Origin: Xanthomonas bromi
GTDB taxonomy: Bacteria > Pseudomonadota > Gammaproteobacteria > Xanthomonadales > Xanthomonadaceae
Length of the DNA: 64,000 nucleotides
Assembly (NCBI RefSeq): GCF_900092025.1
Contig: NZ_FLTX01000025.1
Coordinates: 1 to 64,000, forward strand
Direction: 5' to 3'
Positions within the stretch are counted from its first letter, which is position 1, and every line of letters starts with the position of its first letter. This document shows positions 9,710 to 48,007 of the stretch, in pieces. The notes under the pieces were generated by a model. That model saw only the letters and a list, made by a program, of their open reading frames with translations, did no database searches and was not told the origin of the DNA. A program made the position numbers and the translations under genes.

Positions 9710-12457
9710 ATGAATCGCTCGCTGCTCGCAACCACCATCGCCTCCTGCCTCGTCCTGACTGCCTGTGGTGGTGGTGGCGGTGGCGGCAACGTCCGTAGCG
9801 ATCCGCCGCAGAGCACCGTGATTGCACCGGCTCCGACGCCGTCGCCGACGACTCCGCCGCCCGCAGCCGACCCGTTGCCCAAGACCGCGCCGGCGCCGAC
9901 GCCGGCCCCGCCCCGCTACCAGGGTGTGGGCAGCAATCTGTTGGTGCCGACCAATGCGGATCTGGCGCAGCAAGCCGGTGCAAAGGGTAAGGGTGTGAAG
10001 CTGGCAGTGCTGGACGACAATCTGGTGCCGAGCTACGCACCGATCAGCGGCAAGGTCGACAGCTTCAACGATTACACCGCCAGCCCGGGCACGCCGGAGT
10101 CGTCGGCCAATGCCTTGCGCGGTCATGGCACGATTGTGTCCGCGCTGGTGCTGGGCTCCGCGCAGGACGGCTTCGCCGGTGGCGTCGCGCCGGATGCGGA
10201 CCTGTTCTATGCGCGCATCTGCGCCGAAAATTCCTGCGGCACGCAACAGGCCCGCCGCGCTGCGGTGGATCTGGCCGCCGCTGGCGTGCGCATCGCCAAC
10301 CTCTCCATCGGTGCCTCCTATCCGGATGCTGCCGCCAGTGCCAACGCTGCGTTGGCCTGGAAGTACGCACTGACCCCGCTGGTGCAGGCCGACGCGTTGA
10401 TCGTGGCCTCCACCGGTAACGAAGGCGCGGCGGAAGCCTCCTACCCGGCCGCAACGCCGGTGCAGGAAGCCAGCTTGCGCAACAACTGGCTGGCCGTGGG
10501 CGCGATCAATATCGACAGCGCCGGCAACGCCGCCGGCTTGACCAGCTATTCCAATCACTGCGGCGCCGCTGCGCAGTGGTGCCTGGTCGCGCCGGGCAGC
10601 TACACCGCCCCGGCACTGGCCGGCACCGAATTGCAGGGCCAGATCGCCGGCACCTCGTTCTCCACCGCCGCCGTCAGCGGTGTCGCGGCGCAGGTGCTGG
10701 GCGTGTATCCCTGGATGAGCGCCTCCAACCTGCAACAGACCCTGCTGACCACCGCCACCGACCTGGGCGACCCAGGCGTGGACGCGCTGTACGGCTGGGG
10801 CCTGGTCAATGCGGCCAAGGCGATCAAGGGCCCGGGCCAGTTCGCAAGCAACTGGGCAGTCAACGTCACATCCGGGTACGACAGCACGTTCAGCAACGAC
10901 ATCTCCGGTGCGGGCAGCCTGACCAAGAACGGCACCGGCAAACTCACCCTGAGCGGCACCAACACCTATACCGGCGGCACCACCATTCTCGATGGCGTAC
11001 TGTCGCTCACCGGCAGTCTGCGTTCGGATCTTCTGGTGGCCAACTCGGCCACCTTCGAAGCGCGCGGCGGTGTCATCAACGGAAACTACAGCCTTGTCAA
11101 CGCGACCGGTACCACTGCCATCGAGCTGGGCAAGGGCCTCACCGTCACCGGCCAGGCCAGCTTGAAGGGCAATCTGCTGTTGCTGCCGGAAGCGGCCGGC
11201 TACACCGTGGGCAGCACTGAAAAGATCGTCAGGGCCGGCGTCCTGCAAGGCACGTTCGACCGCGTGCAGTACGCCAATAATTTCTTCTGGAACGCGGCGC
11301 TGTCCTACGACCCGACCACCGTCACCGCCACCCTGACCCGCAATGCTTCCGCCGCCAGCGCGCAGGCGGCCGGTGCGCCGCAGTCGGTGGTCAATGGTGC
11401 GAACCAGATCGACGCACTGGTCAAGGTGCTCGATACGCGGGTCGCCTCGGGCGACACCGACAACCTGGGTGGCCTGATCAGCGCCACAGGGTCGCTGATC
11501 GCCGCGTCCGATGCGCAGGTTGCCGCATCGTTGCCGACGCTGGCCGGCCAGGTGCACGGCATCGAGCGCACGCTGGGCTTCCAATCCGCACTCAACGATG
11601 CGCGTGTGGCTGCCGACCGCCTGCCCTATCTGGCCGATACCACCACGCTGACCACCTGGATGCAGGGCAGCTATCTGGACGGCGATCTGAGTCGCAGCGG
11701 TTTCGATGCAGCCGATTACACCCAGCAGGCGACCACCTTCGGCGTGGATCTGCCGATGGGCAACGCCGGCACCATCGTCGGTGCGGCTTTGACCTCTGGT
11801 CAGGACCGTGCGCACATCGCGGCGTCTTCGAGCCGTCTGCGCTCGGACCGTTATGCGATGACGGCGTACCTCTACCAGCCGATTGGCAAGGCGTATCTGT
11901 CGGCGATCGGTTCGTACGGCATGAGCAACGTCGAGACCGAACGCACTGTGCAGGCCGGTAGCATCGGCGAGCGCTTGCAGGACCGTCGCCACGACACCAA
12001 CTGGTCGGCGCGCGCGGAACTCGGCTTGATGCCGCATGCCGGGTTGTCGCCGTTTGTGGCCGCCGGTGTGGTGAGCCAGACCCAGGATGCCTTCAGCGAG
12101 GCGTCGGTGACCGGTCTGGGCTTGAGCGCGAACAGCGACACCCTGCGCGCAGGGTATGGCGAGGTGGGCGTACGCGGTCATCTGGCGCGTGGCAAGTGGG
12201 GCTTCGATGGTCTTGTGGCGTATCGCTCGCTGCTGGGCAACCCGAACTCCGACTTCTCCGCGTGGTTCACCGGCTTACCGGAAGCGCGGTTCAACGTGGC
12301 CGGCGAGCCGGTGTCCAAGCAGTCGCTACGCGCCTCGGTTGGCGTGCGTTACCAGCTCAACGATGCGTTTTCCATCTATGGCAACGTGGGCGCCGAGCGC
12401 AGTCGTTCCGATGCCAACAGCATCAATGCCAACGTCGGTCTGCGCTGGCAGTTCTGA
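9710..12457 (+). CDS. S8 (subtilisin-like) autotransporter protease with lipoprotein-type signal
   Basis: 915-residue type Va autotransporter. The signal peptide ends in LTACGGGGGGG, a lipobox followed by seven glycines, then a Pro/Thr-rich linker to about residue 75. The passenger has subtilisin-family motifs: KLAVLDDNL (Asp region), RGHGTIVSAL (His), STGNEG (oxyanion Asn) and AGTSFSTAAVSG (nucleophile Ser). One autotransporter-associated repeat follows (SLTKNGTGKLTLSGTNTYTG) and then a C-terminal beta-barrel of about 280 residues ending in Phe. The Asp motif differs from the common VIDTG. The start at 9710 is favoured over 9689 because it begins the signal peptide. A hairpin terminator follows at 12531. 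Likely role: surface or self-processing protease. Lipid anchoring is predicted, as in NalP and SphB1 lipo-autotransporters. Confidence 0.92.
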   Translation: MNRSLLATTIASCLVLTACGGGGGGGNVRSDPPQSTVIAPAPTPSPTTPPPAADPLPKTAPAPTPAPPRYQGVGSNLLVPTNADLAQQAGAKGKGVKLAVLDDNLVPSYAPISGKVDSFNDYTASPGTPESSANALRGHGTIVSALVLGSAQDGFAGGVAPDADLFYARICAENSCGTQQARRAAVDLAAAGVRIANLSIGASYPDAAASANAALAWKYALTPLVQADALIVASTGNEGAAEASYPAATPVQEASLRNNWLAVGAINIDSAGNAAGLTSYSNHCGAAAQWCLVAPGSYTAPALAGTELQGQIAGTSFSTAAVSGVAAQVLGVYPWMSASNLQQTLLTTATDLGDPGVDALYGWGLVNAAKAIKGPGQFASNWAVNVTSGYDSTFSNDISGAGSLTKNGTGKLTLSGTNTYTGGTTILDGVLSLTGSLRSDLLVANSATFEARGGVINGNYSLVNATGTTAIELGKGLTVTGQASLKGNLLLLPEAAGYTVGSTEKIVRAGVLQGTFDRVQYANNFFWNAALSYDPTTVTATLTRNASAASAQAAGAPQSVVNGANQIDALVKVLDTRVASGDTDNLGGLISATGSLIAASDAQVAASLPTLAGQVHGIERTLGFQSALNDARVAADRLPYLADTTTLTTWMQGSYLDGDLSRSGFDAADYTQQATTFGVDLPMGNAGTIVGAALTSGQDRAHIAASSSRLRSDRYAMTAYLYQPIGKAYLSAIGSYGMSNVETERTVQAGSIGERLQDRRHDTNWSARAELGLMPHAGLSPFVAAGVVSQTQDAFSEASVTGLGLSANSDTLRAGYGEVGVRGHLARGKWGFDGLVAYRSLLGNPNSDFSAWFTGLPEARFNVAGEPVSKQSLRASVGVRYQLNDAFSIYGNVGAERSRSDANSINANVGLRWQF

Positions 12458-44876: not shown

Positions 44877-44918
44877 AAAAAAAAACGGCGCCCCTCCGGT
44901 AAACCGGAAGGACGCCGT
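44877..44918 (-). terminator. leader terminator before the nitrate transporter gene
   Basis: 15-bp stem with all positions paired (including G-U), a four-base UUUA loop, and a run of nine T, ending 27 bases before the narK start codon. Its 5' arm overlaps hairpin P3 of the leader, as expected for transcription attenuation rather than simple termination. Confidence 0.9.
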
Positions 44919-44996
44919 TGTCCTGGATGCGTGCGGATCGCCGTTGAACCGCTGCACCGTGTACGTGTTGTTGCCGGCACGCCGTTGCGCCTGCAC
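44877..44996 (-). promoter_or_regulatory. nitrate-responsive leader RNA with three AACGGC hexaloop hairpins (NasT/ANTAR target)
   Basis: Three stem-loops follow one another in the transcript. P1 (44976-44991) has 5 bp, GGCGC and GTGCC with one G-U pair. P2 (44933-44952) has GCGGTTC and GATCCGC with one U-U mismatch. P3 (44909-44924) has 5 bp, AGGAC and GTCCT. Each closes the same six-base loop AACGGC, with A at loop position 1 and G at position 4 as in known ANTAR targets. P3 uses the bases that form the 5' arm of the terminator, so P3 and terminator exclude each other. P2 and P3 are eight bases apart, like a canonical two-hairpin ANTAR site; P1 is an extra element near the predicted 5' end. 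Binding by NasT, encoded just upstream, should favour readthrough into narK-nirBD-nasA-cobA. Confidence 0.85.
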
Positions 44997-45006
44997 CTGA
45001 GTGCTA

Positions 45007-45023
45007 CGCAATCACCATGCCAA
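45007..45023 (-). promoter_or_regulatory. sigma-54-type promoter of the nitrate operon
   Basis: The minus strand reads TTGGCATGGTGATTGCG, close to the consensus TTGGCACG-N4-TTGCA, with the invariant GG and GC ten bases apart. It predicts transcription starting near 44996, five bases before hairpin P1. The dependence on RpoN is inferred from sequence only. Confidence 0.75.
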
Positions 45024-45275: not shown

Positions 45276-46340
45276 TCAGCGCGTGTCGAACAACCGGTTG
45301 CTGCGGTGATCGCTGTCCGGCACCGCCACACCCACGCGCGCCGCGGCACGACGGTAGTTGTCCAGACGATGGATATCCCGCAGCCGCGCGATATCGTCGT
45401 CCTGGATGTCGTGCCATCCCCAGCGCTGGAACTGGCGCAGGAACCACTCACCATCCGATAGCCACGGCATGTTCACCGTGCCGTTGCGATGGAACGCGAG
45501 CGACGTCGCGGCATTCGCCGGATCATTGGCATCGGCCTCCAGACACGCGGCAAGATGCGTGGCCGACACCCCGATATGCTGCGGTTCGGCCAACCACTGC
45601 GCACACTGTGCGCGGTGGTCCGGCCCAGCATCCAGCCAGCGGCAGGCCTCCAGCACACAGGCCGTCAGCTGCTCGGGCAGCTCCGGCTGCAGGGCAGCGA
45701 ATTCACGCCGGCATGCCAGCACCTTTTCCGGATGGCCGGGCCACAGCTCGCCGCTGCGGATCACCCGTGCACCCACGCCTTGCGCCTGCGCCACGGCTGC
45801 CCATGGCTCGCCGGAGCAATAGCCATCCACCAGCCCGCTGCCCAGCGCCTCGGGCATCTGCGGTGGTGGAATGCTGAGCACATCGACATCGCGCATCGGG
45901 TCCACCCCGCCTGCGGCCAGCCAGTAATACAGCCACAACGCATGCGTGCCGGTGGGAAAGGTCTGCGCGAAGACCGCGCGTCTCCCCAGGCCGGTCAGTG
46001 CCTGCGGCAACGCCTGACCGTCTGCCAGCGCCAGCGCCAAGGCAGGCGCCAGGGTAATCGCCTGACCGTTGTGATTGAGCGTCATCAGCAAGGCCATCGC
46101 GCATTGCGGCCCGGCAATGCCCAGATCGATGGCGTACACCAGGCTGGCCAATGTGTGGGCGGCATCCACCTCGCCCGCCAGCAGTCGATCGCGCACGCCC
46201 GCCCACGAGGCCTGCCGTTGCAGATCCAGATGCAGACCGTGCGCATGGTCTAGCCCCAGCCGCTGCGCAGCCACCAGCGGGGCGCAATCGATCAGCGGCA
46301 TGTAGGCCACACGCAAGACGGGAAGGTCGGCTCGGCTCAT
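45276..46340 (-). CDS. nasS: nitrate sensor NasS (NrtA/CmpA-like, cytoplasmic)
   Basis: 354-residue protein of the NrtA/CmpA nitrate/bicarbonate-binding family. It starts directly with the mature domain (LRVAYMPLIDCAPLVAAQRLG) and has no signal peptide or lipobox, so it stays in the cytoplasm. Typical segments are LTLNHNGQAITL-like (MTLNHNGQAITLAP), TFPTGTHALWLYYWLAAGG and GYCSGEPWAAVAQAQG. In characterised systems NasS holds NasT in an inactive complex until nitrate or nitrite binds. The gene starts four bases after nasT ends, and no transporter permease or ATPase genes accompany it, which supports the sensor role over an ABC uptake role. Confidence 0.88.
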   Translation of the reverse strand: MSRADLPVLRVAYMPLIDCAPLVAAQRLGLDHAHGLHLDLQRQASWAGVRDRLLAGEVDAAHTLASLVYAIDLGIAGPQCAMALLMTLNHNGQAITLAPALALALADGQALPQALTGLGRRAVFAQTFPTGTHALWLYYWLAAGGVDPMRDVDVLSIPPPQMPEALGSGLVDGYCSGEPWAAVAQAQGVGARVIRSGELWPGHPEKVLACRREFAALQPELPEQLTACVLEACRWLDAGPDHRAQCAQWLAEPQHIGVSATHLAACLEADANDPANAATSLAFHRNGTVNMPWLSDGEWFLRQFQRWGWHDIQDDDIARLRDIHRLDNYRRAAARVGVAVPDSDHRSNRLFDTR

Positions 46341-46344
46341 CGGT

Positions 46345-46917
46345 TCATCCCAGCAATTCGGCCATGGCCACGATGCGACGCGCCACTTCGGCCAGCTTGA
46401 CGCCCTGCTTCATCGCCTGCTGGCGCAGCGCGGCATAGGCATCGGCCTCGCTGAGGCCGCGTTTTTCCATCAGCAGACCCTTGGCGCGGTCGATTTGTTT
46501 GCGGTCCTGCAAGGCCTGCTGGACGTCGTCCAGGCGCTTGCGCATGCTGCTTTCGTGGGCAAACCGCGCCAGCGCCACCTGCACGATCGGCGCCAACCGC
46601 GCCGGCGCCAGGCCATCGACCACATACGCGGTGACACCCGCACCGACCGCGGCATGGATCAGCGCATCGTCACCATCGCCGGAAAACATCACCACTGGTC
46701 GCGGTGCATGCGTGTGCAGCATCGACAGCTGTTCCAGGGTGTCGCGCGAGGGCGAGTCCACATCGATCACTACCACATCCGGTTGCTGGCTCTGTACCGC
46801 ATGCAGCAACGCACCCACCGAGGCCACATCGTCGAGCACCGTGTAGCCCGCGCGCGTCAGCGCCTGGCGCAGTTGCCCGATTGGCTTTTCGGTATCGTTG
46901 ACCAGCAAAACACGCAT
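46345..46917 (-). CDS. nasT: ANTAR-domain antiterminator NasT
   Basis: 190-residue receiver-ANTAR protein. The receiver (1-120) has Asp52 in VVIDVDSP, but the conserved Lys-Pro near its end is replaced by VVDGLAP, so phosphorylation may not be the signal. The C-terminal ANTAR domain (RKQIDRAKGLLMEKRGLSEADAYAALRQQAM) binds RNA hairpins with A..G.. hexaloops. The ATG at 46917 begins the receiver; the upstream frame is unlike the family. It is co-transcribed with nasS and lies upstream of the leader it should act on. Expected role: relieve termination before narK when NasS senses nitrate. Confidence 0.92.
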   Translation of the reverse strand: MRVLLVNDTEKPIGQLRQALTRAGYTVLDDVASVGALLHAVQSQQPDVVVIDVDSPSRDTLEQLSMLHTHAPRPVVMFSGDGDDALIHAAVGAGVTAYVVDGLAPARLAPIVQVALARFAHESSMRKRLDDVQQALQDRKQIDRAKGLLMEKRGLSEADAYAALRQQAMKQGVKLAEVARRIVAMAELLG

Positions 46918-47002
46918 TGGCGGCAGCGAGGCGTGTGGACGTGATCCGATGGTGCCATGCAACATGCCATTGGTGCGAGTCATCATTTCTGGGAGTGAAC
47001 CG

Positions 47003-48007
47003 ATGCCGTTGTTTCCGTTGTTCGCCAATCTGCAGGGGCGCGCCGTGCTGGTGATCGGTGGCGGCGAGGTCGCCACGCGCAAGGTGCTGGCACTGCTCAA
47101 GGCCGGTGCGCAGATTCGTCTGTATGCGCATGCGCTCTCGCCCGAGCTTGCGGAGCTGATGCAGGCCGGCCGCTTCGAGCAACTGGATGACGAATTCGAT
47201 CCTGCCTGGATCGACACGGTATGGCTGGTGGTCGCCGCCACCGACGACGCCGACTTGAATCAGCGCGTGGCCGCCGCCGCAGGCGCGCGTCAGCGCTTGG
47301 TCAACGTGGTGGACGATGCCGAGCTATCCACCTATCAGGTGCCGGCGATCGTGGACCGCGCCCCGTTGATCGTCGCCATCTCTTCGGCGGGCGCCGCGCC
47401 GATGTTGGCGCGGCGTCTGCGCGAGCGGCTTGAGCGCGAACTGGATGCATCGGTTGGCCGTTTCGCGGGGTTGTTTGCGCAGTACCGCGAGCGCATCCGC
47501 AGCCAGTTTCCTGACATGAACCGGCGCCGCCGCTGGTTCGATCAAGTGATCGATGGGCAAGTGCCGTTGCTGCTGCAAGCCGGCGAAGATGTCGCAGCCG
47601 AAGCCGCCTTCAACGCGGCGTTGGACGACGCTGGCGCCGTCCCGGCGCGCGGCAGCGTGCAATTGGTCGGCACCGGTCCCGGCGATCCGGGGCTGCTGAC
47701 GTTAAAAGCGTTGCGTGCCATGAATCTTGCCGATGTGCTGCTGATTGACGCGGAGGTACCGGACGCGATCCTCGAACTGGCACGCCGCGACGCCTCGCGG
47801 CGCGCCCTGCCGTCCGAGCCGCAGGCACAACATGCGCTACTGGTGGAACTGGCAAGTGAAGGCCTGCAGGTGGTCGCACTGCGCAGCGGCACCGGCTACT
47901 GCCCTATGCTAGCGGCCCCGATCGAAGCCGCGCTGCAATCACGCGGACTGGCCTGCGAGCGGGTGCCGGGAATTTGCACCGAACGGTGCAAGCAGGTCAC
48001 GCCGTGA
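47003..48007 (+). CDS. cysG: siroheme synthase (dehydrogenase/ferrochelatase) with vestigial SUMT segment
   Basis: 334 residues. The N-terminal 210 form precorrin-2 dehydrogenase/sirohydrochlorin ferrochelatase (VLVIGGGEVATRKVLALLKAGA, LVVAATDDADLNQRVAAAA, NVVDDAELSTYQVPAIVDRAPLIVAISSAG). From about residue 217 a SUMT-like segment begins (GTGPGDPGLLTLKALRAMNLADVLLIDAEV) but stops after 118 residues at PGI. The VGKRxG motif is missing and the GGDPFIFGR motif is changed to RSGTGYCPM. The start at 47003 has GGGAG about eight bases upstream. The methyltransferase step must therefore come from CobA. It is transcribed divergently from nasT with only 85 bases between. Confidence 0.9.
   Translation: MPLFPLFANLQGRAVLVIGGGEVATRKVLALLKAGAQIRLYAHALSPELAELMQAGRFEQLDDEFDPAWIDTVWLVVAATDDADLNQRVAAAAGARQRLVNVVDDAELSTYQVPAIVDRAPLIVAISSAGAAPMLARRLRERLERELDASVGRFAGLFAQYRERIRSQFPDMNRRRRWFDQVIDGQVPLLLQAGEDVAAEAAFNAALDDAGAVPARGSVQLVGTGPGDPGLLTLKALRAMNLADVLLIDAEVPDAILELARRDASRRALPSEPQAQHALLVELASEGLQVVALRSGTGYCPMLAAPIEAALQSRGLACERVPGICTERCKQVTP

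Follow-up and report, generated by a model that had tools for sequence, protein, structure and literature searches.

We propose, with a probability of roughly two in three, that narK of Xanthomonas bromi is preceded by a NasT-controlled attenuator with three NasT sites, in which the promoter-proximal hairpin (P1) is a genuine first loading hairpin that feeds a second one (P2) and then the antiterminator hairpin (P3). Computation shows three sites, folds in which P3 and the terminator exclude each other, and a P1 that is conserved, covaries and keeps a fixed place behind a promoter motif. This anatomy, the conservation and covariation, and the adjacent nasS–nasT pair all support the original prediction of a three-hexaloop ANTAR leader for the nitrate operon. 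Throughout, the window denotes the whole 64,000-nt stretch of DNA that was analyzed.

Three hexaloop hairpins between nasS and narK

All leader elements lie on the minus strand of the Xanthomonas contig, between nasS and narK. The gene order on this strand is nasT–nasS–leader–narK, followed by nirB-, nirD- and nasA-like frames (nitrite/nitrate reductase-like; names assigned by inspection). From 5′ to 3′, the features are:

46348..46935, minus strand: nasT, response-regulator-like with an ANTAR RNA-binding domain (Pfam PF00072, E 5.5e-13; PF03861, E 6.4e-21)
45276..46340, minus strand: nasS, putative nitrate/nitrite sensor and NasT partner (Pfam PF13379 NMT1_2, E 1.7e-76; gene order)
45008..45022, minus strand: sigma54-type promoter TGGCAT-N5-TTGC (GG-N10-GC), from sequence; such a core is present in 49 of 50 distinct family leaders
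44996, minus strand: predicted transcription start (+1, give or take 1–2 nt), from the GC at −12
44972..44995, minus strand: P1, promoter-proximal hexaloop hairpin; loop AACGGC at 44986–44981 (+11 to +16)
44926..44958, minus strand: P2, second hexaloop hairpin, outer stem included; loop AACGGC at 44945–44940
44909..44924, minus strand: P3, antiterminator hexaloop hairpin; loop AACGGC at 44919–44914
44877..44919, minus strand: predicted intrinsic terminator with nine-T tract; its 5′ arm shares the loop and 3′ arm of P3
43642..44850, minus strand: narK, MFS nitrate/nitrite transporter, first gene 3′ of the leader (PF07690, E 2.2e-41)

The best matches of NasT among sequences of solved structures were 1s8n (a putative antiterminator) and 6wsh (EutV; named in PMC8934654). 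In the alignment, for which the numbering offset was inferred, EutV residues R142, K143 and Y164 are identical in the NasT of the window and K147 is replaced by R; the available portion of PMC8934654 describes the roles of these four residues in RNA contact. The genome thus encodes an ANTAR domain together with RNA-contacting residues, and nasS and nasT are adjacent, 5′ of assimilatory nitrate genes, as in a NasS–NasT system. NasT residues 1–196 are 100% identical to X. floridensis and X. cucurbitae records, in a comparison set from which the window's own record is possibly absent. Divergent from nasT, a siroheme-synthase-like frame (46898–48007, plus strand; from inspection of its translation) fits the siroheme requirement of nitrite reductase.

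Directly 5′ of P1, TTGGCATGGTGATTGC (45022–45008) is a GG-N10-GC motif that we take to be a sigma54-type promoter; it was absent from the first description of the locus, and a generic sigma70 promoter scan gave no match on the minus strand. With such a promoter just upstream, P1 should start near +2: counted from the predicted +1, the first stem base of P1 lies at about +2 and the first loop base at +11, in keeping with the earlier expectation that transcription starts 5′ of P1. The sigma54 promoter would presumably be under nitrogen control.

All three hairpins carry AACGGC, an A1/G4 hexaloop. P1 reads GGCGC[AACGGC]GUGCC and, with outer UGC/GCA beyond one mismatch, forms a 24-nt element; minimal P2 is GCGGUUC[AACGGC]GAUCCGC (44952–44933, one U-U mismatch), with an outer stem at 44958–44926 in the fold; P3 is AGGAC[AACGGC]GUCCU (44924–44909). 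Sequence, folds and domain matches hence bear out the original prediction of three AACGGC stem-loops before narK with nasT upstream, and so, on minimal stems, do the spacers of 23 nt (P1–P2) and 8 nt (P2–P3). Both spacers fall within 2–25 nt, the linker limit within a hairpin pair set as a criterion in the actinobacterial survey PMC8164766, as far as that text was available. The predicted sharing of bases between P3 and the 5′ arm of a nine-T terminator was likewise found, with 16 pairs counted (44919–44884; T tract 44885–44877) instead of the 15 bp first given.

When the transcript was folded at increasing lengths from the predicted +1, P1 had formed by +28, P2 by +74 and P3 by +88. When the terminator is added, the closing-pair probability of P3 drops from 1.00 to 0.00 and P1 and P2 stay at 0.97–0.98; among the three hairpins, the terminator excludes only P3 in these folds. 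An ANTAR target RNA is recognized by at least two A1/G4 hexaloop hairpins, the last of them mutually exclusive with the terminator; the window has three, and by folding its last hairpin behaves in this way. P1 was displaced by another helix when sequence 5′ of +1 was folded in, so its formation depends on the position of the transcription start. We set the fold with the promoter included aside because that stretch should be untranscribed, given the predicted start.

P1 is conserved at the predicted transcript start in Xanthomonadaceae

On its own, the octamer CAACGGCG is not unusual (13 copies in the window versus 7.6 expected; 13 was reached in 4 of 100 shuffles), and the stretch 44999–44906 that spans the three hairpins has, taken alone, an unremarkable folding energy (z −0.42). 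We nonetheless reject a chance repeat on grounds of conservation: what goes beyond chance is that P1 is conserved and holds a constant position with respect to the promoter.

Within the family (Xanthomonadaceae, labelled Lysobacteraceae in our tree), a NarK search was positive in 45 of 297 genomes, and upstream stretches were read for 44 besides G000. Including the window, this yielded 45 family leaders, of which 43 were aligned, both a promoter match and a P3 core being required; alignments A1 and A2 accordingly omit L037, which lacks P3, and L039, which lacks a promoter match. Conservation of P1 in related genomes had been set beforehand as a test of the original prediction, and the first loop position, A1, is kept in 42 of the 43 aligned leaders, G4 in 41 and both in 41, with the closing C-G pair kept in all. 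The loop is AACGGC itself in 28 leaders; variants that keep A1 and G4 are AACGGG (6), AACGAG (3), AAAGCC (2), AACGAC (1) and AATGCC (1), and the loop starts at +9 to +12 throughout. As for the P1 stem, 88.9% of cells pair in 32 distinct rows versus 23–61.5% with slid partners; six of nine pairs change on both sides (a count reached in 9 of 500 shuffles), and the covariation score was reached in none of 500. A1 and G4 of the P2 loop are kept in 42 of 43 leaders, and the P3 loop is AACGGC in 43 of 43, its core being a condition of entry. Folding the whole alignment to a consensus, with no structure supplied, predicted exactly three hexaloop hairpins.

A scan with one rule for all loci classified 50 distinct family leaders as having hexaloops in both upstream zones (42), at P2 only (6) or at P1 only (2); of the family loci L001–L044, L012 and L037 yielded no candidate. 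Among the 49 promoter-bearing family leaders, 44 have their first upstream hexaloop 33–41 nt from the promoter TGG, versus 0.8% of shuffles. Because P1 persists at the predicted transcript start in related bacteria, it is probably genuine as a loading site, as opposed to a repeat that arose by chance; these leaders are related, and the conservation counts are therefore of non-independent events. The alignment also shows a conserved CAAC motif directly 3′ of P1, in the P1–P2 linker (44970–44967), with C, A and A at first-row positions 38–40 kept at 90% or more.

Natural losses of single hairpins

Two family leaders, L014 and L026, retain P2, P3 and a P1-like stem, the last with no A1/G4 loop; as the two NasT proteins group as sisters in the tree, the P1 loop may have been lost just once. 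L039 has P2 and P3 and neither P1 nor a promoter match, and no P1 was found by the scan in L141. P1 loops that are kept on an imperfect stem, as in L019 and L040, were rejected by the scan. Conversely, L041 keeps P1 and P3 and has a tetraloop hairpin at the place of P2. Judged from these leaders, either upstream hexaloop can be lost (the P1 loop in L014 and L026, P2 in L041).

In L037, from a 99% complete genome (G239) with no NasT hit at E ≤ 1e-10, P2, P3 and the terminator are missing. narK and the sigma54 motif are retained and the P1 stem is recognizable, with a loop, GACGGC, that has lost A1. Joint loss of A1, P2, P3 and the terminator in a genome without NasT is what would be expected of a NasT site, albeit in a single case. 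More broadly, a leader-model match is missing in 10 of 35 genus genomes, and the X. dyei and X. vasicola records (L183, L187) give partial NasT matches only; together, these sequences suggest that nitrate assimilation has been lost or broken more than once.

Leaders beyond the family

Searches for NasT were positive in 84 of 369 genomes of the class and in 14 of 250 of the order. Leaving G000 and G010 aside, 82 class genomes carried a NasT hit, and we retrieved the regions of 57 of them, mostly the best-scoring ones, together with three from the order. Candidate leaders drawn from these regions, from named loci and from model-search loci were all scanned with the single rule, without hand removal; by rule, four P2 hits taken as P3 and seven candidates lacking both promoter and hexaloop were dropped. 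The 79 distinct non-family candidates had zero, one, two or three upstream hexaloops in 7, 49, 22 and 1 cases, that is, at least two in 23, Neisseriales included. Triples by scan occur in Jeongeupia (L156), a Neisseriaceae bacterium (L158), Aquitalea (L160–L162) and Paludibacterium (L165), as well as in L185, L100, L073, L087, L099, L051/L054/L090 and L199.

The first upstream hexaloop lies 33–41 nt from TGG in 24 of 61 promoter-bearing non-family candidates, versus 0.4% of shuffles; the remaining 37 do not fit this distance, seven of them lacking a recognized hexaloop. There are also short leaders (L045–L049, L101, L113, L170) whose sole upstream hexaloop sits at the promoter distance of P1. 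Judged by promoter distance, P1 is a common first hexaloop, to which Xanthomonas adds a P3-adjacent one. The original prediction had placed P1 beyond the usual pair of hairpins, which held in part: a third hexaloop is present, but many NasT leaders with a single upstream hexaloop place theirs where P1 lies.

We dropped a general law that each leader has at least one of P1 or P2, because 7 of the 79 candidates had neither by the rule; these are partly cases of an unusual closing pair or stem that was missed, partly candidates that are maybe not leaders. An earlier scan that required a T tract gave similar promoter distances (35 of 39 family leaders, 23 of 58 others), after hand removal of seven candidate P3 sites (L066, L069, L076, L085, L092, L093, L106), and a looser earlier rule found at least two upstream hexaloops in 26 of 80 non-family candidates. 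The T-tract requirement excluded leaders such as L041, and one of the earlier scans clipped P2 stems near −21.

In a tree of 101 NasT proteins, Xanthomonadaceae and Neisseriales-type rows form a clade (support 100/98) in which 38 of 46 rows have at least two upstream hexaloops; the triple leader is therefore probably old in this clade. Elsewhere the label is scattered, with 19 changes over the tree, at least 12 of them forced by supported branches. This tree has several long branches, and its bootstrap had yet to converge.

Searched with a covariance model built on the three hairpins, the window's genome gave a single significant hit (E 5e-13), ahead of hits at 0.066 and 0.6. At E ≤ 0.01 the model matched 25 of 35 genus genomes and 12 of 274 class genomes, the latter including the own genome and one family member and not all being triples. 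Plasmid and phage collections gave no match. Two further arrangements were seen among the loci. On its minus strand, L069 has two leaders with multiple hexaloops, separated by about 1.9 kb (P3 loops at 11776 and 13665 in reversed-locus numbering); in one of them, the scan counts three upstream hexaloops. In Chitinimonas (L163, L164), a hexaloop lies 39 nt from the promoter motif and 109 nt from P3, and the long middle stretch is strongly folded (z −2.5 and −3.3).

A proposed loading model and its alternatives

We envisage that transcription would start at the sigma54 promoter, making P1, as a NasT hexaloop site, the first structure to leave RNA polymerase. Nitrate or nitrite would free NasT from NasS, as in Paracoccus, where nitrate releases NasT and NasT binds the nasA leader RNA (PMC3795266, available portion). 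Freed NasT would load on the two recruitment hairpins, P1 and P2, and be handed to P3 as this emerges; P3 held by NasT would block the terminator, since both use the same bases, and permit read-through into narK and the nitrate genes. NasT binding to each site, the order of loading and a gain in sensitivity or speed through P1 are what we infer.

Given published work, as far as the texts were available, the most economical reading is an early loading role for P1, with P2 as the bridge to P3. A Paracoccus hairpin I mutant does not grow on nitrate (PMC5424462); a EutV dimer touches a single hexaloop, with the first hairpin proposed as a recruiter that hands the protein to the second (PMC8934654); and a lone hairpin is bound by NasR at ~12 uM, with lower affinity than the pair (PMC7496416). 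The EutV linker limit is the strongest argument against a direct action of P1 on P3, as antitermination was lost once the linker was extended by 20 nt (PMC8934654, available portion) and P1 lies 23 nt from P2 and more than 40 nt from P3 (67 nt from loop to loop). Several observations on the leaders weigh against the main reading: L014, L026 and L039 still have P2–P3 without P1; L019 and L040 have imperfect P1 stems, and L141 lacks P1 by scan; a single upstream hexaloop is the commoner state outside the family (49 of 79), where 37 of 61 promoter-bearing candidates depart from the P1 distance.

One could instead take P1 and P3 as the working pair, with P2 mainly a spacer hairpin that joins them and its hexaloop an optional extra. 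Such a pair would suit the 22 of 79 non-family candidates in which all recognized upstream hexaloops lie more than 44 nt from P3, often with another hairpin in between in folds, as it would L041 with its tetraloop and Paracoccus, whose hairpins HI and HII (137 and 91 bp before nasA) are ~46 bp apart in the available text of PMC5424462. It is hard to square with the near-invariant A1 and G4 of P2 in family leaders and with the three of them that do without P1. Moreover, the stability of the middle stretch is mixed (z −3.3 to +0.6) and the scan rule misses some P2 hexaloops in non-family candidates (L060 shows one by eye), leaving this pairing unlikely.

A 5′-terminal hairpin could also be retained for some other reason, P1 serving as a stem-loop that protects the mRNA end or, as DNA, as part of the sigma54 promoter within its initially transcribed region, with the likeness of its loop secondary. 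The near-fixed promoter distance and a stem from about +2, both family-wide, would fit; yet it is the stem letters that vary, with compensation, and A1, G4 and the closing C-G that stay constant, and NasT-less G239, a single case, keeps promoter motif and stem and loses A1, which makes this explanation rather improbable. P1 might also act as a decoy, keeping the protein off P2–P3 and so setting a threshold for NasT. This would agree with a like site standing apart, 23 nt 5′ of P2, but is very improbable, as one copy per transcript, in cis, would hardly be able to titrate NasT, several short leaders have their sole upstream hexaloop at P1's promoter distance, and no result favors a decoy over a loading site.

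The loading reading of P1 extends, tentatively and with the odds somewhat against it, to a wider scheme: in many sigma54-driven NasT leaders, a hexaloop would be the first folded element (A1 near +8 to +16), followed by zero, one or more hairpins up to a terminator-overlapping P3, and the Xanthomonadaceae/Neisseriales triple would be a relay in three steps, with NasT loading at promoter escape and then moving from one hairpin to the next. If true, the relay would directly test the hand-off from recruitment to antitermination. The available part of PMC8934654 asks why ANTAR regulators should require two hairpins, given that a dimer binds only one, and treats this as open. A leader with two upstream sites, relatives missing one or the other, and a nasT-less relative form a natural variant set for recruitment, hand-off and linker limits.

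Comparison with known systems

NasS–NasT control of Paracoccus nasA and Bradyrhizobium nos shares with this locus the NasS/NasT pair, leader hairpins and antitermination by freed NasT, as described in the accessible portions of PMC3795266, PMC5424462 and PMC6759348. For the Paracoccus nasA leader, the accessible text describes two mutated hairpins and makes no mention of a third site, compared with three in the window.

Among Rfam families, P11 (RF00625, Pseudomonas) has the same order of promoter-like sequence, hexaloop hairpin, P3-like sequence and terminator, and matched the window over the whole model (39.6 bits, E 1.3e-6), at a score under the gathering score of 70 and thus short of membership. 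The RF00625 model has one upstream hexaloop, which aligns to P1; the P2 of the window falls in an insert. Conversely, narK RNA (RF03032) spans the P2 and P3 sequence without P1 and matched at 23.2 bits (E 0.12), again below its gathering score (43.2) and short of membership; in 274 class genomes, 12 matched RF03032 at E ≤ 0.001, two of them over the cut-off, and the own genome had no match at E ≤ 0.001. Run at gathering scores on eight related loci, Rfam found only a tRNA, and we dropped it as a leader classifier, given that the window's matches, obtained with an E-value limit, were all under gathering. RF00625 (the P11 'sRNA') and RF03032 (the narK motif) look like two descriptions of one leader class, and the P11 model appears from its consensus lines to contain a sigma54 motif. 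Models of one upstream hexaloop plus P3 may, we suggest, miss a site.

A three-hexaloop NasT leader was found neither in the available portions of PMC3369931, PMC7496416, PMC8164766, PMC8934654, PMC3795266, PMC6759348 and PMC5424462 nor in a wider literature search that covered mostly main texts outside subscription; this silence is weak evidence of novelty. With the two-hairpin ANTAR target RNAs of EutV, NasR and AmiR, as described in the parts of PMC3369931 and PMC8934654 at hand, the leader shares A1/G4 hexaloops, the overlap of the last hairpin with the terminator and a nearby ANTAR gene; it differs in that there are three such hairpins, of which the first lies at the predicted 5′ end, and may thus be a new variation on the known two-hairpin ANTAR leader.
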